Assembly: GCF_041053055.1 (NCBI RefSeq)
Contig: NZ_CP163443.1
Span: 1 to 64,000, forward strand
DNA from: Streptomyces sp. R41
GTDB lineage: Bacteria > Actinomycetota > Actinomycetes > Streptomycetales > Streptomycetaceae
DNA length: 64,000 bases
Direction of reading: 5' to 3'
Shown: piece by piece, positions 1 through 54,216 of the stretch
Layout of the letters: every line of letters starts with the position of its first letter
How positions within the stretch are numbered: position 1 is the first letter of the stretch
Notes under the pieces: model-generated
Seen by the model: the letters and a program-made list of their open reading frames with translations, nothing else
Told to the model about the DNA's origin: nothing
Databases searched by the model: none
Program-made: the position numbers and the translations under genes

Positions 1-2
1 GA

Positions 3-324
3 GTGCAGATCCGGACCGGGTCCCGCCGGATTTCGCCTGGCGCCCACGAGCCAGTGATGACGCCTGGGCCGCCATCTGCGACGGCGTCAGATCCAACGGC
101 GGCACCGGCCGTGGCCGATCTGTTCGGCATGCACGCGAACACGCTCAGGGAATTCGCCCGACCTGTCGGCGCGGCAGGTAGCCGGATCGATCTGACTATC
201 TGTCAGAATCTGCGCAAAACCTCAAGCGCCCCCATGACCCGTACTCCATGCGGTGAGGGGAGAGCTGGCACAGGCCCTCGGAGGGTAGCCCGAGGGCCTC
301 TTGCATACCTGCGGTTGCCTGGCC
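3..324 (+). repeat. Long repeat, copy 1 of 3
   Basis: This segment is nearly identical to 35332-35647. Its second half (about 183-337) recurs inverted at 44903-45052. The first part encodes a broken helix-turn-helix-like protein tail: the frame has to shift once to read from the FAWRP/AWAAICDGV part into the ADLFGMHANTLREFARP part. The second part is non-coding and ends in a strong hairpin. Copies 1 and 2 share the protein remnant and the hairpin; copy 3 has only the hairpin part. It may be a mobile unit or a duplicated terminator/small-RNA region; the function is unknown. Confidence 0.75.
272..299 (+). terminator. Hairpin terminator in repeat copy 1
   Basis: The arms AGGCCCTCGG and CCGAGGGCCT form a 10-bp GC-rich stem with a short loop, followed by a T-containing tail (CTCTTGCAT). 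It is preserved in all three copies of the repeat. Confidence 0.6.
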
Positions 325-344
325 GTACCGGAGCCAGACCGCAA

Positions 345-1950: not shown

Positions 1951-2359
1951 GCATTTCCAGTACCACGGATGACGGGCGAGGCCAAAGAATTGACCGAGCA
2001 CCCCGATTCGGCCTGCGGATCGCCCAGACAGCGGCGGCCCCTGCCATGAACAGAGAGTTCCCCTCGCGCCGGCAGTCCTTCGGGCCACGCAGCCGCCGTA
2101 ATACACGACCGGCGGGTCGCGGCCTCCCTCATGTGGATGGTCATAGAGTCCGATCGCCGGGGCTGGTGGAACGTCTACGGCGACGTCCCGTTCAACGTCC
2201 AAGTCGGCCTCGTGACCGAAGACGCCCGATCCACTCCTACGAGCCTCTGGTAGCCCCCGGAGCCGAGACCGGCGGTCCACCAATACATCGCTATTGATCA
2301 GGATAAGTAGCCTGATACGGCTGATCTTCCCTGGCGCCAATCAAGGGCCAGAGGTGCAT
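1951..2359. other. No gene supported
   Basis: Upstream region of the minus-strand YihY gene. The apparent reading frames lack domains and ribosome-binding sites. Confidence 0.45.
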
Positions 2360-2605
2360 GCGGGGTCACCCCGCGCGCTCGGCGTCTGCGCGCGGGCGGT
2401 CTCGCGTTGGTCGATCAGGTCGTCGCGATCACTGCCGACGGCGGCCGTCTCGCGGCGCGAGGTACGGCCATGGCGAGAGGTGCGGCCGCGGTGAGAGCTG
2501 CGGCGCGCACCGGCCACGAATCCGGCCGGCGGGACGGAGTCCCGCACATCCGCACGGAGTGCGGATGTATTCCACGCGAAGCGTGGAATCCGCCGCGTAG
2601 CGGCG
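2360..2605. repeat. Belt of tandem palindromes with 3-nt loops (telomere-like)
   Basis: Consecutive perfect hairpins with three-base loops are packed here. The clearest are 2529-2545 (arm GCGGGAC, loop GGA), 2546-2568 (arm ACATCCGCAC, loop GGA), 2569-2589 (arm ATTCCACGC, loop GAA) and 2591-2605 (arm CGCCGC, loop GTA). The first three touch each other with no spacer and the fourth follows after one base. All four close with C-GNA-G. Further upstream are 2360-2374 (arm GCGGGG, loop TCA), 2437-2449 (arm GACGG, loop CGG) and 2449-2461 (arm CTCGC, loop GGC). Streptomyces linear replicon ends are built from such tandem palindromes with GNA-type triloops. Here they lie inside the window, so an internalised telomere relic is one inference; a structured regulatory or replication site is another. 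Confidence 0.7.
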
Positions 2606-2910
2606 CCGCCCACGCCGTCCGTACCGTCACCGGGGGAATCCGCTGGAAACTTGCCGGACGCATCGACACCGTCCACCGCCCCAAACCGAGGCCGCCCCGC
2701 CACCGACCAGCCAACCACCATCAGCGACCGCCGTCACCACCCCGTCAAGATCACCAACAGAGTCACGGCATTGATCCTAGACCTCCAGTAAACAGTGGGT
2801 TGGCGAGACGCGGCGAGTCACCCTTGAGCCGCCGGTCAGCGGTTGCCCCTGAGGCCGAGGGGGATCAAAGTCAGAGAGGGAGAAGAACTCACCCGCGATC
2901 GGAGGACACC
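2606..2910. other. No gene; leader of the DUF6131 gene
   Basis: No coding frame is supported. Near 2840-2865 the sequence GGTTGCCCCTGAGGCCGAGG followed by GGGGAT could be a stress sigma (SigB-like, GTTN14GGGTAY) promoter for the gene at 2911, but the match is loose. Confidence 0.3.
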
Positions 2911-3066
2911 GTGATCGCCCTCGGAGTAATTCTGCTCATCATCGCGTTCCTGGCCAAGATCTCCATCCTGTGGATCATCGGGATCATCTTGATCGTCATC
3001 GGGGCGATCTTGTTCCTCCTTGGCCACGTGGGCCACGCGGTCGGCGGACGACGGCATTACTGGTAG
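2911..3066 (+). CDS. DUF6131-type small membrane protein
   Basis: This 51-aa protein is almost entirely hydrophobic: two membrane segments (about residues 2-18 and 20-40) are followed by a short basic tail ending GGRRHYW. The pattern matches the small actinobacterial DUF6131 proteins. The GTG start at 2911 is supported by GGAGGA at 2901-2906, an ideal distance upstream. It is the first of a run of small plus-strand genes and sits upstream of two coiled-coil paralogues. It is probably an envelope-stress protein, but no biochemical role is known. Confidence 0.8.
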   Translation: MIALGVILLIIAFLAKISILWIIGIILIVIGAILFLLGHVGHAVGGRRHYW

Positions 3067-3266
3067 AAGCAGCACACCCGCTGTGCGACGACCGCCGGCG
3101 TCGCCCCCTTGAGCCGCCCCTGCGGCGGTCGCAGACGGTGCTCACTTCAGAGGGGGTACGGTCTCGGGCCGCAGCCAGCAGCGGACACCAGTATCTAAAT
3201 TTCGGATCACTGGTCGGGGGCACCCGCACTCCAGGGGTAGCCAGTCGGCCACAAGCGGAGGACCCA

Positions 3267-3818
3267 ATGTCCGTCATCACAATCATCGTTGCCGTGGTGC
3301 TTGTGCTGATCGTGTGCGCGGCGGTGGCGTGGGTGGTTACCACGCGCCGCCGCAAACTACGGGAGCGCTTCGGACCGGAGTACGAGCGGACCGTGGAGGC
3401 CAAGGACAGCCGTCGGGCGGCCGAGCATGAGCTGCGCGAGCGCGAGGAACGCCACGATGCACTGGACATCAGGCCGCTGCCGTCAACTGTCCGGGATCGG
3501 TACGCCCAGGACTGGACCCGGGTGCAGGAACGTTTCGTCGACCGACCCGACGACGCGGTCCACGAGGCAGACCGGCTCGTGACCACCCTCATGAGCGAGC
3601 GCGGGTATCCGACCGAGGGGTACGAGCAGCAACTGAAGGACCTGTCGGTCGAACACGGGCGCACCCTGGAGCACTTCCGGGCCGCCCACGAGGTCAACGA
3701 TCGCAGCAGCCGCCATCAGGCGACCACGGAGGAGCTGCGGGGCGCGATGGTGCACTACCGCGCGCTGTTCGAGGAACTGCTCCACAACGGCGACCGGCCG
3801 CGCGAGAGCCGGGCGTGA
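3267..3818 (+). CDS. Membrane-anchored helical protein, paralogue A
   Basis: The 183-aa product has an N-terminal membrane segment (residues about 4-26), a basic stop-transfer stretch (TRRRKLRERFG), a charged helical linker, and a C-terminal helical domain from about residue 72 (DWTRVQERFVDRPDDAVHEADRL...) to the end. The ATG at 3267 follows GCGGAGGACC. The C-terminal domain is shared with the next gene (WQKIQSEFVDDPQDAVNAADQL), so the two are tandem paralogues, one anchored and one soluble. The family is common in Streptomyces but uncharacterised; no enzyme motif is visible. Confidence 0.75.
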   Translation: MSVITIIVAVVLVLIVCAAVAWVVTTRRRKLRERFGPEYERTVEAKDSRRAAEHELREREERHDALDIRPLPSTVRDRYAQDWTRVQERFVDRPDDAVHEADRLVTTLMSERGYPTEGYEQQLKDLSVEHGRTLEHFRAAHEVNDRSSRHQATTEELRGAMVHYRALFEELLHNGDRPRESRA

Positions 3819-3897
3819 GCCCGGCACCAGCGACGTGAGCCGACGAGCTGGACCTGTCGGCGGCCGGCCCGAACGCGTCAGGAACGGAAGTGAAGAG

Positions 3898-4377
3898 ATG
3901 CAGAGCCAAGAGACACCCGAGCCGAGCGAGGTCGGCCTGTCCACGGAGGACCTGGCCGGTGCTCGGCAGGACACTGGGGAAGACGAGCGGGGCTTGGCGG
4001 ATGCGCCGGAGTACCCCGGGGAGTCGACCACCATAGACCGAGAGGATCGGCAGGAAGACGGCGGCCAAGACGCCGAGCCCGCTGGGGCGAATGCGGAACT
4101 CGACGAGGAGAACGAACCCCTCCTCGGACCGGAACAGGAGGAGTTCCGCGCCAGGTGGCAGAAGATCCAGAGCGAGTTCGTCGACGATCCACAAGATGCC
4201 GTCAACGCGGCCGACCAGCTGGTCGCCGAGGTGATGCAGGCCCTGGCCACGACCTTCTCCGAACACAAGCAAGGTCTAGAAGGCCAGTGGCAACGCGGCG
4301 AGGAGGTAGCGACCGAGGATCTGCGCGTCGCGCTCCAGCGTTACCGGTCATTCTTCAACCGCTTGCTCAGCACCTGA
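3898..4377 (+). CDS. Soluble helical protein, paralogue B
   Basis: This 159-aa protein has a very acidic N-terminal half (residues 1-80, rich in E, D, G and Q, probably disordered) and a C-terminal helical domain (about 85-159) homologous to that of the preceding gene: FVDDPQDAVNAADQLVAEVM, then LRVALQRYRSFFNRLL. It lacks a membrane segment. The ATG at 3898 follows GGAACGGAAGTGAAGAG. The 79-bp gap to the upstream gene fits co-transcription. Its 3' end overlaps a transposase relic on the other strand. Confidence 0.7.
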   Translation: MQSQETPEPSEVGLSTEDLAGARQDTGEDERGLADAPEYPGESTTIDREDRQEDGGQDAEPAGANAELDEENEPLLGPEQEEFRARWQKIQSEFVDDPQDAVNAADQLVAEVMQALATTFSEHKQGLEGQWQRGEEVATEDLRVALQRYRSFFNRLLST

Positions 4378-4738
4378 CCACCAGCGCGGCCACGGCGCTG
4401 CCTCGCTGCGCGCGCGCCACCAGGCGCGCACGAAATTCTCGATCGGGACGGCGCCGCGGATCGCCGGTATCAGCAGGGCCTTCCTCCTGCCAGCGGGCGA
4501 AGTAGGCGTAGACGCTGTTCCAATAGGTAGTCGTGCGGGAGGTAGCGCCAGGGATCCCCGTGCGGTTCACGTAGAGCACCACGTCCAAAAGGCTCCGCAG
4601 ATCGTGGTCAGGAGGCCAGCCGATGTCCAGGCCCCGGCCGCGGCGCTCGGACCACCAGGCGGTCAGGACCGGCTCGATCAACTCCCACCGGGCATCGGAC
4701 AGATCACTGGGGTAACGGCGACGTTCTGGCACGATCAA
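4367..4738 (-). pseudogene. IS5-family transposase, N-terminal relic
   Basis: The N-terminal part of an IS5-family transposase is recognisable: RRYPSDLSDARWELIEPVL, and later VLYVNRTGIPGA and SVYAYFARWQ. It resembles the start of the intact-looking copy at 27848 (YPSDLSDARWELIEPVLSAW). After about 100 residues the sequence degenerates and the catalytic core is absent. It overlaps the last bases of the gene at 3898. Confidence 0.75.
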
Positions 4739-17613: not shown

Positions 17614-17820
17614 GAAGGCGCGGGCGTTCGTGTGGCTGCGACGGCGTTCGGCGGCCCACCACGGAGGCCCGACTGTGAAGGGACGGCTTGAACTGGCCCC
17701 ACCACGGCCCGTGAGCTGCTGACGCTGTCCATTGGAGCGACTTTCAAGCAGTCATGGATCTTCACATAACGGGTCCAGGTCAAGCCGACATCGTGGGGCC
17801 GCATATCGACGTCACAGCCA
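17614..17820 (-). repeat. 207-bp inverted repeat, right arm
   Basis: Inverted partner of 16426-16632 (differences at a G/A in GTGGGCC versus GTAGGCC and in CGCAGCC versus CGCGGCC). It begins at the base after the pentapeptide gene's stop codon. The flanking sequences outside the two arms differ, and no target duplication is visible. Confidence 0.9.
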
Positions 17821-18374
17821 AAACCGGCGTCTCGAGCGCTGGGGAGCTCTCCCACAGCCGCATGGAGGCCTTGGAGGATCTCGATCCCGGGTGGTGCCCG
17901 ATGAGGTGGGACGTCTCCTGGCAGCGTAACTACCGGTTGGCGCTCGCCCACGTGAAGGCCGGCGGCGCGCTGCCTGGCGGGCCGCGTGAGGTGGTGGTGC
18001 AGGGCGAGGACCTCGGCGTGTGGATCGCCGGGCAGAAGGCCGCATGGCCTCAGCTGACGCCTGCACAGGCCTACTTGCTGGAAACGTTGGGCGTCGACCC
18101 GGATGACACGGCGGGTGCGCGGCCGGCCCCGCGCTCGCAGGACGACCGGTGGGCCGCCAACCTCGCCGCAGCTCGCCAGTTCCGTGCCCGCGAAGGCCAC
18201 CTGCGCCCGGCCCGAAAGCACCTTGAAACGATCACTGTGGGAGTGGGTGGAGACGGCGGCCAGGAGGTGGCGGTGAGGCTGGGGGCGTGGTTGGACAACA
18301 CCAGGCGAAGGGCGGCTAAGTTGAGCCCAGAGCGCCGCGCTGACTTGGATGCGCTTGGGACGCGGTGGTCCTGA
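17821..18374 (+). pseudogene. Helicase-associated (HA) domain tail
   Basis: The frame entering from the inverted repeat encodes the C-terminal HA repeats of large actinobacterial DEAD/DEAH helicases: WQRNYRLALAHVKAGGAL, GEDLGVWIAGQKAAWPQLTP, AQAYLLETLGVDP, then a second unit ending VAVRLGAWLDNTRRRAAKL. The helicase core is missing, cut off by the inverted repeat. The remaining 180 codons are an orphan tail. A related decayed tail occurs at 26930-27213. Confidence 0.65.
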
Positions 18375-35262: not shown

Positions 35263-35331
35263 GCGCAGCGATCCGGCGTGGATGACGTCACGGCGGTCGT
35301 ACTTCTCCGGCCGCCCGCCCGTCGGCTCAGT

Positions 35332-35647
35332 GCAGATCCGGACCGGGTCCCGCCGGATTTCGCCTGGCGCCCACGAGCCAGTGATGACGCCTGGGCCGCC
35401 ATCTGCGACGGCGTCAAATCCAACGGCGGCACCGGCCGTGGCCGATCTGTTCGGCATGCACGCGAACACGCTCAGGGAATTCGCCCGACCTGTCGGCACG
35501 GAAGGTAGCCGGATCGATCTGACTATCTGTCAGAATCAGATTCCTTAAGCGCCCCCTTGACCCGTACTCCATGCGGTGAGGGGAGAGCTGGCAGAGGCCC
35601 TCGGAGGGTAGCCCGAGGGCCTCTTGCATACCTGCGGTTGCCTGGCC
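35332..35647 (+). repeat. Long repeat, copy 2 of 3
   Basis: Nearly identical to 3-324, in the same orientation; differences are scattered, plus a small indel near 35540 (CAGATTCCTT versus CTGCGCAAAACC). It carries the same frame-shifted HTH-like tail and hairpin. Confidence 0.85.
35595..35622 (+). terminator. Hairpin terminator in repeat copy 2
   Basis: The same AGGCCCTCGG / CCGAGGGCCT stem as at 272-299. Confidence 0.6.
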
Positions 35648-44902: not shown

Positions 44903-45052
44903 CTGGCTCCGGTACGGCGAGACAACTGCAGGGATGCAAGAGACCCTCGGGCTACCCTCCGAGGGCCTCTGCCAGCTCTCCCCTCACCACATGGAGTACG
45001 GGTCATGGGGGGCGCTTATGGAGTTGCACAGATTCTGACAGGTAGTCATATC
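44903..45052 (-). repeat. Short form of the long repeat, copy 3 of 3
   Basis: Inverted relative to copies 1 and 2, this 150-bp segment matches 183-337. It includes the hairpin (44941-44968) and the preceding CATGACCCGTACTCCATG block, but not the HTH-like tail. Confidence 0.8.
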
Positions 45053-45333
45053 AACCCACTACCTGCCGCGCCGAAAGGTCGGGCGAATTCCCGGGCTGTA
45101 CTGGTAGCTGGTGGCGCTCAGGGCAAGACGGGGACGCCCGTGATCACCAGCCATCCCGGCGCAGCCACCCATCCATGGACGTACCGCCGTCCGGCATCGC
45201 CGTTACCGAAACGCCGTCACGGAACGGTGAGAAGCCGTGGACAAACCCATCAGGCTACGGCTGTCTCTGAACCGGGTGCTTCGGTCGGGTGTGTGAACGC
45301 GCGATCCCCGGCACAGTGTGGTGATGCTGAGGC
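45053..45333. other. No gene supported
   Basis: Spacer upstream of the hypothetical gene at 45334. Confidence 0.5.
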
Positions 45334-48955: not shown

Positions 48956-50575
48956 GTGGGGTGTGCTTCTGCTGCAGGGGGCCGGATCGGGAAGTCGCAG
49001 TCGAAGGTTGATCTGTACGCCGCGATACGCCGTGACCACCTCGGTGGTCTGACCCAGCGGGCTTTGCAGCGCAAGTACAACGTGACCTGGCGGATGGTGC
49101 GGCGGGCTCTGGACGGGCAGTGGCCGCAGGAGCGCAGGAAGCCGCGGCGGCGGGAGTCGCGGCTGGATCCCTACAAGCCGCTGATCGACGGGATTCTGCA
49201 GGCGGACCTGGACGCGCCGGCCAAGCAGCGGCATACCGCTCAGCGGATCTTCGACCGGCTGGTGGACGAGCACGGCGCCGATGACATCTCGTATCCGATG
49301 GTCCGCTCCTATGTGAAGGACCGCCGTCCGCAGGTGCGACGGGAGGCGGGGTTAGGTCCGCAGGCGATGTTCGTGCCACAGACGCACCTGCCCGGGGCGG
49401 AGGCGGAGGTCGACTTCGGCGAGGTGCACATCGTGCTCGCGGGCGAGCTGACCCGGGTCTACCTGTTCTCGCTGCGCCTGTCGTACTCCGGAAAGGCGGT
49501 GCACCGGGTGTTCGCAACCGCCGGTCAGGAGGCGTTCTTCGAAGGCCACGTGCATGCTTTCCGGGTGCTGGGCGGTATCCCGCGGGCGCGCATCCGCTAC
49601 GACAACCTGCGGGCCGCGGTCGAACGCGTCCTGGGCTTCTCCCGCGGCCGGGTGGAATCGGACCGCTGGACAGCGTTTCGCTCGCACTGGGCCGTCGAAC
49701 CGTTCTACTGCCGGCCCGGCATCGAAGGCGCCCACGAAAAGGGCGGCGTCGAGGGGCAGATCGGCTTCTTCCGCCGCAACCACTTCGTCCCCGTCCCCGA
49801 GGTCGCATCGCTGGCGGAGCTGAACGCGATGGTCGATGAGTGGGACCAGGCCGACGAAGGCCGCCGGCTGCGCTCGCGCACCCGCACCATCGGCGAGTAC
49901 TTCGCCGCCGAACAGCACCTCCTCAAACCGCTGCCGACCGAGCCGTTCGAGACCGGCCGCTGGTTCTCCCCCAGGGTCAACCGCTTCAGCCAGATCAGCG
50001 TCCGCGGCAACACCTACTCAGTGCCGGTCCGCTTCATCGGCCGCCAGCTGCGGGTGCTGCTGCACGCCAACGACCTCATCGTCTACGACGGCCGCAACGA
50101 GATCACCCGGCACGAACGCCTCGGCGGGGTGCACGGCTCCCGACTGGTCCTGGACCACTACCTCGAGGCCCTGCTGCGCAAGCCGGGCGCCTTCCCCGGC
50201 TCGACCGCCCTGGAACAGGCCCGCTCCGCGGGCCGGTTCACGCCCGTTCACGACAAGTGGTGGGCGGCGGCGAAGGCCGCCCACGGCGACGGGGCCGGCA
50301 CCCGCGCGCTGATCGAGGTCCTGCTGCTGGCCCGCCACATGGAGCACGAGCAAGTCGTCGCCGGCCTGGCCGCCGCCTACCGGGCCGGGGCCCTGACCGC
50401 GGACGCGGTCGCCCTGGAGGCCCGCAAGCTGGCCCCTCTCTCGCCTACGGCCACATGGAAGATCGAGCGGTGTCGCGGTCGATGGTCTCCCGCGAGTGAG
50501 CCGCCAGTCCCGACGAATCCTGCCCGTCCCTGCCGCGGTGGCTTCGTGGACGCTGCCGTTCTACCGTGGGAGTAG
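48956..50575 (+). pseudogene. istA: IS21-family IstA transposase, 3' end altered, no istB
   Basis: The frame encodes an IstA with N-terminal HTH (DLYAAIRRDHLGGLTQRALQ, KYNVTWRMVRRALDGQWP), a DDE core (TEVDFGEV-like AEVDFGEVHIVLAGELTRVY, IPRARIRYDNLRAAVERVLG, YCRPGIEGAHEKGGVEGQIG with the Glu) and a C-terminal beta domain (RGNTYSVPVRFIGRQLRVLL). After LEARKLAPLS (about residue 495) the frame leaves the family and ends in unrelated sequence. The IstB ATPase gene that normally overlaps is absent, replaced by the small membrane gene at 50598. The element is thus incomplete. Confidence 0.8.
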
Positions 50576-50597: not shown

Positions 50598-51044
50598 ATG
50601 ATCGCCATCCTCGGACTCATCATCTTGATCGCCGCGGTAGTCGTCGGCGTGGCCGGTGTTCTCACCAACAGCGGCAGCGGGCATGAACTCACCGGCGGGT
50701 TCTCGGTATTCGGCCACGGCATGACCGGATCCACCGGCACGCTGTTCCTCTACGGCATCATCGTCGGAGCGGCGGCCCTGTTCGGGCTGAGCCTGCTCTT
50801 GACCGGTGCACGCCGCCGCGCTCCTCGCCGAGGCAGCGCATCGCGCCGCGAAGTCAATCAGTCACGCCGCGAGACGACCTCTGCCGGGCCGGGCCGCAAC
50901 GACCGGGGCGACCAACGCGAGCCCGCCCGCGCGGAAAACGCGAACGCGCAGGGGGACTCACCCCACGGTGATCGCGCTCCCGCCCCGGACGGCGGTCGCC
51001 GGAGCAGGCTGCACTTGTTCGGGCACCGATCCGCCCCCGGGTAG
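50598..51044 (+). CDS. Two-pass membrane protein with long charged tail
   Basis: The 148-aa protein starts with a membrane helix (MIAILGLIILIAAVVVGVAG), a glycine-rich loop (LTNSGSGHELTGGFSVFGHG), a second helix (GTLFLYGIIVGAAALFGLSL) and a disordered Arg/Glu-rich tail ending RLHLFGHRSAPG. This plan recurs in Streptomyces stress regulons, often near DUF6131 and CsbD-like genes. It lies 92 bp upstream of a CsbD-like gene. GGAGCGCG precedes the ATG. Confidence 0.7.
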   Translation: MIAILGLIILIAAVVVGVAGVLTNSGSGHELTGGFSVFGHGMTGSTGTLFLYGIIVGAAALFGLSLLLTGARRRAPRRGSASRREVNQSRRETTSAGPGRNDRGDQREPARAENANAQGDSPHGDRAPAPDGGRRSRLHLFGHRSAPG

Positions 51045-53201: not shown

Positions 53202-53305
53202 TCGGGCGCACGCCTCACTGGCGTCGGTCGTCCGTTCGCGCTGTACCTCTTGTCCGTCTGCCAGTCCAGTCAGGCGTGAGCAGTTCCGGGCTCCGAGGTC
53301 CCGTC

Positions 53306-54139
53306 TCATCCTCGCCGTTTCAGTGCACGTGCCACGCGTGGGAGCTCCTCGTGCAGCAGCCGGCCGACCAGGGCACCGCCGAAGACGACGACGCCCACAC
53401 CGACCAGCCAGGACTGGATGACCAGGACGGTTCCGACGGGGCCGTAGGTGACGGCGTTGGACACGATCAGCGGCGAGTAGACGAGCCGGGAGAAGACCCT
53501 GAGACCGAGCAGCCCGACCAAGGTGGCCACCGCGCCAGGCAACAGAGCGCGCCAGCGAACCCTCCCGCCCAGCAGTATGCGCTGCGACCACCAGAAGAAC
53601 AGGACGGCGCTCAGCGAGGCGACGAACGCGCCGGCCAGGGACTCCGGTCGCAGCGTGGTAGTGGCGGAAGCGAAGAGATAGCCGATGAGTACGCCGAGCC
53701 ACACCACATGGCGCCACCTGGCCCACCAGCGGGCCGGGGGCAGATCCCAGACCTTCTCATAGCCGGACTGCACCGCTACCCCGAAGGCCAGGCCGAAAGC
53801 GGCGAGGACGGCAATGCCGAACGCGGTCGTGGTCCGCAGAGCCTGACCGGGACGAATAAACAACTGCTCCACATGTTCCCTGGAGGTCGTCGACACGCCG
53901 AGTCCTTCCCCCAGCCACTGCGCGAATCCCCGCCCATGCTTTGGATCGGCCGAGGAGACAATGATCAGCAGCGGCACCAGCGTGAGGAACCCCAGCGCCG
54001 CGAAGCCCAGCGAACGCTGCCCCAACTCCAGGTCGCTGCTCCGCCGCCATCCACGTCCGACTGGTGAATGGCTGATCACGCGGCCCAGCCGTTCGAACAG
54101 AGAGGAACGGCCCGCAGCACCCGGGGTCTTCATCGGCAT
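53306..54139 (-). CDS. YihY/BrkB family membrane protein (paralogue of 1117)
   Basis: The 277-aa protein has the same start (MPMK), length and conserved segments as the gene at 1117-1950: RSLGFAALGFLTLVPLLIIV, WWSQRILLGGRVRWRALLPG, LLHEELPRVARALKRRG. Six membrane helices are predicted. Divergently upstream lies a PRC-barrel/YihY chimera. The Shine-Dalgarno is weak. Confidence 0.88.
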   Translation of the reverse strand: MPMKTPGAAGRSSLFERLGRVISHSPVGRGWRRSSDLELGQRSLGFAALGFLTLVPLLIIVSSADPKHGRGFAQWLGEGLGVSTTSREHVEQLFIRPGQALRTTTAFGIAVLAAFGLAFGVAVQSGYEKVWDLPPARWWARWRHVVWLGVLIGYLFASATTTLRPESLAGAFVASLSAVLFFWWSQRILLGGRVRWRALLPGAVATLVGLLGLRVFSRLVYSPLIVSNAVTYGPVGTVLVIQSWLVGVGVVVFGGALVGRLLHEELPRVARALKRRG

Positions 54140-54216
54140 GCCTGTCGACTACCACGGTCGACCCCGGCGCTCCGCGAGGGCGCGACGCGGCTGCCCGAAC
54201 GGCGCAGGACGAGGCC

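Follow-up and report, generated by a model that had tools for sequence, protein, structure and literature searches.

The hairpin block that lies 2.5 kb inside the Streptomyces sp. R41 contig is, on the evidence of its sequence, telomere DNA of Streptomyces linear replicons, of the non-archetypal Sg2247 class, which now sits truncated and inverted in orientation with respect to the chromosome arm, between the remnant of a gene and the remnant of an insertion sequence (IS). We consider it probable that this arrangement is a natural repair scar, in which a deletion running from a small membrane-protein gene (gene A) into an IS was sealed with a scrap of telomere DNA as filler, probably in the course of patching a broken chromosome. 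The window, i.e., the whole stretch of DNA that was analyzed, corresponds to the first 64 kb of a single contig of 10,462,393 bp (genome completeness 99.56%), and the features that bear on this model are collected in Table 1.

According to the proposed mechanism, an IS1182-family element would have inserted at a CTAG tetranucleotide between, or in the 5' end of, gene A and the divergent gene coding for a DUF6131 protein. A later break or deletion would then have removed the 5' half of gene A together with all but 173 bp of the IS. Instead of being joined directly, the broken ends would have received an internal fragment of about 86 bp of an Sg2247-type telomere as filler, with joins showing a 2-bp overlap on the right and an ambiguous short overlap on the left.

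Table 1. Features of the captured telomere piece and of its flanks (positions in the window).
Feature	Positions	Strand	Description and evidence
Gene A, 3' part (small membrane-protein gene)	2341..2520	-	tblastn, residues 67-120 at 2520-2365; paralogs
Left junction zone	2507..2520		Compatible with gene A as well as with the inner portion of the true G050 telomere
Captured Sg2247-type telomere piece	2520..2605	+	Matches to plasmid and contig ends, HMMs of true ends; palindrome I and spacer absent
Hairpin V	2529..2545	+	7-bp stem, loop GGA; palindrome scan and DNA folding
Hairpin IV	2546..2568	+	10-bp stem, loop GGA; palindrome scan and DNA folding
Hairpin III	2569..2589	+	9-bp stem, loop GAA; palindrome scan and DNA folding
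Palindrome II core, CCGCCGCGTAGCGGCG	2590..2605	+	Loop GTA; perfect palindrome with 6-bp stem at 2591-2605
Right junction	2604..2605		2-bp overlap (CG); IS match from 2604, telomere match through 2605
IS1182-family stump	2604..2776	-	One inverted repeat, leader and about 22 transposase codons; rest deleted
CTAG target tetranucleotide	2777..2780		Beside the intact outer IS end
Ancestral DUF6131 upstream region	2877..2910	+	By matches, resumes at 2842 (G089, a locus without gene A), 2877 (G284) and 2893-2894 (G012, G203)
DUF6131 small membrane protein gene	2911..3066	+	Pfam PF19626, E 1.1e-9; synteny

Architecture of the hairpin block

Four C-GNA-G hairpins follow one another at 2529-2605, separated by 0, 0, and 1 base. 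Their coordinates, stems, loops and spacers came out of the palindrome scan exactly as the first-pass annotation of this DNA had described them. Folded as single-stranded DNA, the block formed all four hairpins on each strand, with z scores of -3.6 (+) and -5.1 (-), and the native fold energy was reached by 0 of 100 shuffles per strand. The surrounding genome offers little that compares. The hairpin scan covered 464 kb of this 10.46-Mb genome (left 144 kb, right 140 kb and 180 kb of the interior) and returned 10 C-GNA-G hairpins with a stem of at least 6 bp, 8 of them on the left, 0 on the right and 2 in the interior. Four of these ten constitute the block, which is the sole run of two or more in the sample, and no such run arose in thirty simulated first-order Markov sequences of 144 kb. 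The four tandem hairpins are real and far beyond what chance would produce. When any loop of 3-4 bases was allowed, one further close cluster of three hairpins was found in the 464 kb (L014, 15521-15581, loops AGCC, AGTT, and GGC); close hairpins as such are not unique, and it is the C-GNA-G cluster that is unique within this sample.

Three additional palindromes had been annotated at 2360-2461 as companions of the block. They are present, but they are weak (stems of 6, 5, and 5 bp, loops TCA, CGG, and GGC), none is of the C-GNA-G type, and they lie within sequence homologous to gene A, outside the telomere DNA.

Homology to Sg2247-type telomeres

The cited sections of PMC8743542 name S. griseus 2247, S. 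rimosus ATCC 10970, pSHJG1, pSCAT, and pSGZL as members of the Sg2247 class and give GGA, GAA, and GTA as its commonest loops. They describe pSHJG1 as having one Sg2247-type end and one archetypal end (section 12), and state that its authors found no telomere proteins for the class (section 13). In the record CP003276.1, pSHJG1 resembles the window at its left end, with a match of 81% over 53 bases (E 4e-9, small comparison), and has the archetypal palindrome I at its right end; the Sg2247 end is called 'right-hand' in PMC8743542, where the orientation is opposite to that of the record. The block also shares a 24-base match with the archetypal end of pSHJG1. The left end of pSCAT, a plasmid that was not chosen by similarity, has the same 16-mer (the palindrome II core), the same spacer and the same palindrome I. 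The layout of pSGZL is the same, with different palindrome sequences, no 16-mer and no match beyond 7 bases. At the sequence level, the window fits the pSHJG1-pSCAT subgroup of the class. The comparison of stems among ends is descriptive: its rows were chosen as perfect palindromes of at least 5 pairs, so that a covariation test does not apply.

Profile searches pointed to the same class. An HMM trained on 19 true ends, which excluded the window and were chosen by the 16-mer taken from the window (palindrome II), recovered 2546-2605 at E 2.5e-11 from 464 kb of the genome, the next best match being at 0.08. Without the 16-mer, the signal of this HMM was much weaker, with the window still on top at E 0.0025 and the next match at 0.13. 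An HMM of the four named plasmid ends alone had the window as its sole hit (E 4e-8). By blastn against plasmid records, judged from the best 20 of the 110 records that matched at E up to 10, the five listed matches with an E of at most 0.02 all run to within 13-27 bases of the terminus of a linear Streptomyces plasmid record (NZ_CP109486.1, NZ_CP108301.1, NZ_CP108317.1, CP003276.1, and CP003721.1, the last at the same coordinates as CP003276.1). Across 392 genomes of the genus, this one (G000) included, the contig ends G160:C32, G160:C48, G127:C1, and G200:C78 match the block at E 1e-7 to 5e-6; only such top matches were used, as 288 of the 392 genomes 'match' at E up to 0.01, mostly over 20-70 bases among the matches listed. 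A candidate counterpart at 7.02 Mb (L005) was set aside as just a short match, and in the phage collection the best E was 0.3 among the best 20 of 36 matches.

Alignment to known Streptomyces telomeres has thus upheld the telomere-like character that the first-pass annotation had proposed. The same annotation had offered a new structured site reusing the telomere geometry as another possibility, which is unneeded because the sequence itself, and not the geometry alone, matches telomere ends.

What the window keeps of such an end can be stated precisely. True ends read ...CCGCCGCGTAGCGGCG-GCGCGTCG(T/C)GTCTGCGGAGCAGACCGCGCGC; beyond the palindrome II core they carry an additional G, a short spacer and palindrome I. 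The window shares the first 16 bases, then diverges, and has none of the three. Palindrome I of the Sg2247 class is absent after 2605, and no copy within 3 mismatches exists anywhere in the genome. The 16-mer is present once, and no second copy of the telomere class was found in the assembly. The block is homologous to a telomere class but fails two defining features of a telomere, the end position and palindrome I, and it is therefore an internal, truncated telomere sequence. Since it is internal, points inward and lacks palindrome I, the piece probably has no telomere function now.

Specificity of the palindrome II core

The 16-mer occurs at 47 places in 34 of the 392 genomes, and all 47 were inspected, with further C-GNA-G hairpins (stem of at least 5 bp) counted in the 120 bases inward of the 16-mer. 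Twenty-two places lie within 31 bp of a contig end, and every one of them has at least two further hairpins. The 25 places away from contig ends comprise 19 that have no further C-GNA-G hairpin, the window (3 further hairpins), both ends of G258 (4 and 3) and three internal telomeres (one or two) that keep a palindrome I-like sequence (G299:C1 8513119, G391:C63 2642, and G021:C41 1859). The 16-mer alone was rejected as proof of a telomere, given these 19 places without an array and a reversed-pattern control that also matched in many genomes. Of all places that carry the exact 16-mer, only the one in the window is clearly truncated; a truncated piece lacking the 16-mer would escape this survey.

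The other internal cases are of interest in their own right. The telomere at G299:C1:8513119-8513134 (-) (L134) has palindrome I, lies 399 kb inside an 8.91-Mb chromosome and points inward, and this chromosome has telomeres of the same class at both ends. It has the appearance of an end-to-end join between a linear plasmid and a chromosome arm, with no terminal helicase gene within the 15 kb fetched around the internal telomere. In two draft contigs (G391:C63:2642, L133, and G021:C41:1859, L154), a palindrome I-like end is followed by other sequence, through either fusion or assembly error. As for the ends of G258 (L131 and L149), the left end of G258:C1 consists of a telomere followed by an inverted, imperfect self-copy, as from fold-back reads, and looks like a fold-back artefact; the right end runs 1.8 kb past its own telomere, starting with GC repeats.

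Position in the assembly

The terminus-ward direction of the block is rightward, which is inward in the chromosome. Its internal position, as first annotated, holds in that the block is away from a replicon end, though the contig start is only 2.5 kb off. Hairpin scan and end inspection revealed no telomere array at either contig end, and comparison of the outer 144 kb with the outer 140 kb revealed no terminal inverted repeat, just five short internal matches. The contig starts inside a repeat (window 1-337), with a 96% copy at 35329-35647 and a 90% copy at 44903-45092, and at this end the assembly may have stopped short of the chromosome terminus. Circularization at 2605 was considered and rejected, as the flanks of the block belong to one ancestral locus and neither a terminal inverted repeat nor end arrays are present.

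The archetypal palindrome I occurs at 50,232 without an accompanying C-GNA-G array. Archetypal telomere genes are apparently degraded at G000:C1:842470-843892 (-), where two matches below the curated cut-offs were detected, one to the final 61 positions of the Tap model and the other a Tpg-like piece interrupted by a TGA. The best match to the Tap model in the genome (positions 13-113) lies in a 959-aa frame at 6.46 Mb, also below cut-off. The strain may do without archetypal telomeres.

In several linear plasmids and contigs, telomeres of this class have a large helicase gene about 0.5 kb away, and four telomere-bearing contigs among those tested carry the terminal helicase about 0.5 kb inside. 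It is absent near the block. C-terminal remnants of this helicase are found at 17820-18371 (+) of the window and at C1:10445686-10446057, about 16.5 kb from the right contig end (61% and 54% identity), and are possibly relics of old replicon ends in both arms.

The ancestral gene A-DUF6131 locus

To the left of the block, what remains of gene A starts at about residue 67 of a 148-aa paralog, the first 66 codons or so being gone. Paralogs in the same genome lie at C1:50797-50957, 103821-103912, and 119609-119742, and the homology of 2365-2519 to them stops at about 2519; the 103-kb paralog encodes the 148-aa small membrane protein, for which a Pfam search returned no hit. The left break is placeable only to within 2507-2520 because GCACCGGCCACG is common to gene A-like sequence and the true telomere of G050. 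Microhomology at this junction is possible, judging from the shared string.

A 126-aa open frame at 2341-2721 (-) reads across the IS stump, the telomere piece and what is left of gene A, keeping the frame of the latter; this chimera is probably not a working gene. BrkB-like, gene A and DUF6131 sequences recur in the left arm (C1:113166-114000, 53304-54157, 103172-104000, 119219-119763, and 50661-51038).

Gene A is divergent from the DUF6131 gene in G203, G284, and G012 and in the strain's own 103-kb locus. The remnants in the window are likewise divergent, with the gene A piece on the minus strand and the DUF6131 gene on the plus strand, and G203 is collinear with window 2894-4394 at 80%. Since the flanks are adjacent in three other genomes and in the strain's own locus, the telomere piece and the IS stump sit inside one ancestral locus, where they replace some of the intergenic sequence along with the 5' half of gene A. 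Bases 2781-2841, between the CTAG and the first match on the DUF6131 side, fall to none of the identified parts. The window thus displays what is expected of a break-repair scar: part of the ancestral locus is deleted, and a short stretch of unrelated DNA separates the flanks that remain. The pairing of gene A with DUF6131 is not universal. The strain's own 119-kb locus has gene A with a partial DUF6131 sequence, no DUF6131 was found in the 6.5 kb tested near its 50-kb gene A copy, and eight loci fetched by their match to the right flank include DUF6131 in six, with gene A in just two of these.

A feature conserved internally in many genomes, the finding that the first-pass annotation had set against a telomere origin, is not what was observed: the block was not seen at this locus in the 391 other genomes of the genus (best two candidate places each) or in 60 relatives (best nine places scored), 36 of which are also among the 391. 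No close relative in the pre-event state, with the IS present and no telomere piece, was found either. The event was reconstructed from loci that are about 70-80% identical, in which intermediate steps are not visible.

The IS1182-family stump

From 2604 to about 2780, the window is 92-96% identical to the end of an element found in G024, G122, G127, G158, and G011. The copy in G024 is about 1.8 kb long and codes for a transposase of the IS1182 family (NF033551, E 7.9e-97); where both inverted repeats are present, in G024, G127, and G158, the element measures 1.6-1.8 kb. The seven ends listed for four related copies have CTAG (five) or CTAA/TTAG (two) beside them, three bases outward of the repeat. 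The copy in the window has kept its outer end whole, next to a CTAG, and breaks off about 22 codons into the transposase on its inner side, a configuration from which it appears most likely that the IS inserted at this site and was truncated later. The window holds no complete element, only 173 bp truncated at 2604 and no transposase gene. Besides the stump, this genome matches the G024 element best at 937 kb, where 1 kb is 72% identical and a similar inverted repeat is present. The first-pass annotation had placed the block next to a dense IS zone; the stump adjoins the telomere piece directly.

Origin of the insert

The identities of the telomere piece, of the IS stump and of both flanks, and the adjacency of these flanks elsewhere, follow from the sequence comparisons described above. 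From these, we infer in what order the events took place, that end joining was the repair pathway, and where the filler came from, possibly a linear plasmid or the end of a chromosome. Two Ku-domain matches in the genome exceed the cut-off, one being partial, and the 2-bp overlap at the right junction is, by itself, no proof of end joining. Of the two origins suggested by the first-pass annotation, a captured telomere fits, with Sg2247-class DNA found away from a replicon end and beside an IS remnant. A fused telomere joining two replicons does not, as the flanks neighbor each other in other genomes and in the strain's own locus and palindrome I is missing. The fusion of a plasmid end to the arm, which was our own first reading, was dropped once the left flank had proved to be gene A, with DUF6131 as its neighbor elsewhere.

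A related scenario supposes that the arm once ended in this telomere beyond gene A, lost the outer 38 nt or so, and was then fused to an IS-broken end beside the DUF6131 gene, the former terminus having either arisen when a telomere healed an end or belonged to a linear plasmid with gene A on it. The class of the piece and the order of its palindromes are right for such a history, the three internal Sg2247-like telomeres with palindrome I listed above show that comparable structures exist, and the several gene A loci of this arm make the joining of two different copies conceivable. We nevertheless regard it as unlikely, as the fusion of unrelated ends is not expected to restore the adjacency of gene A and DUF6131 at about the usual distance, palindrome I is missing, and the terminal helicase is represented by just a remnant at 17.8 kb. 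The direct junction of the telomere piece with the IS end could also mean that both arrived together, as a ready-made fragment of a linear plasmid with an IS beside its telomere. This is decidedly improbable in view of the outer IS end, which is intact at the CTAG on the chromosome side as for an insertion in place, and of the junction itself, which was seen in the window only in the 392-genome search and whose 26-base string is matched exactly nowhere in the named GTDB r220 set, a set that may lack this genome and very near ones.

A chimeric or fold-back join made during assembly would be favored by the proximity of the contig start, which lies in a repeat, and by the apparent fold-back artefact at a telomere of G258. 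We consider it very unlikely, because only parts of bases 1-2528 recur in the genome, never the full length and never an inverted copy, and because both flanks fit one ancestral locus, unlike those of a random chimera. There is hardly more than a slight chance that the block is a functional internal element, such as a transcription terminator, a protein-binding hairpin array or a recombination site, and not a scar. A set of four strong hairpins, placed between the remnant of one gene and a second, divergent gene, would suit such a role, but a simple scan detected no terminator-like site in the block, the Rfam search returned nothing within it and a single sub-threshold match outside, the block was not seen at the locus in the 60 relatives, and it replaces the start of a gene. 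Repair with a telomere fragment as filler remains our preferred explanation of the arrangement.

Implications and comparison with known systems

Experiments with breaks made in the laboratory have led to the view that illegitimate repair with filler helps to shape the arms of Streptomyces chromosomes. The window supports this view with an example from nature, as terminal DNA of a linear replicon appears to have been built into a chromosome arm at an apparent deletion scar whose parts can be identified. It also calls for caution, in that a telomere sequence inside a contig, taken alone, marks neither a former chromosome end nor a fused plasmid. One could speculate further that telomere scraps regularly patch broken Streptomyces arms, internal arrays being a record of breaks, and that such arrays, still folding or recruiting telomere proteins, act as fragile or end-forming sites that seed new ends; we give this extension little credence.

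Compared with the telomeres of the Sg2247 class, the piece in the window has a palindrome II core identical in 16 of 16 bases to those of pSHJG1 and pSCAT, and tandem GGA/GAA/GTA triloop hairpins in the order found in some true ends, a likeness that extends to sequence-level homology. Unlike these telomeres, it is internal and inward-pointing, it lacks palindrome I and the spacer, and it has no adjacent helicase gene. The stump, in turn, shares with IS1182-family elements 92-96% identity to copies that are 1.6-1.8 kb when complete, the same inverted repeat and a CTAG-type target, and differs from them in being 173 bp of one end without a transposase gene.

The closest parallels to the proposed repair come from S. 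ambofaciens. As reported in the cited part of PMC5869714, five insertion events in all, ranging from 30 bp to 18.8 kb, were recovered after induced breaks, and three clones had scars with inserts of 42 and 83 bp from nearby and of 30 bp from a transposase gene of the terminal inverted repeats. These filler scars resemble the window in having short inserts (30-83 bp) at illegitimate joins, one of them derived from the terminal inverted repeats; they differ in being laboratory-induced, and none is described as telomere palindromes in that part of PMC5869714. In the literature covered, by titles and the beginnings of abstracts and with subscription journals outside the coverage, we recognized no telomere DNA serving as filler in a Streptomyces scar.

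Internal pseudo-telomeres are already known in print, PMC8743542 citing Huang 2007 (SCP1) and Huang 2003 (SLP2). The piece in the window is like them a telomere-class sequence away from an end; it is short, truncated and placed in a deletion scar within an ancestral gene pair, the published cases being compared here through their mention in PMC8743542. Telomere switching or replacement between linear plasmids and chromosomes, as presented in the cited part of PMC7205883, likewise moves telomere DNA between replicons. There, the new telomere caps an end, whereas the fragment in the window has come to lie inside a chromosome arm.
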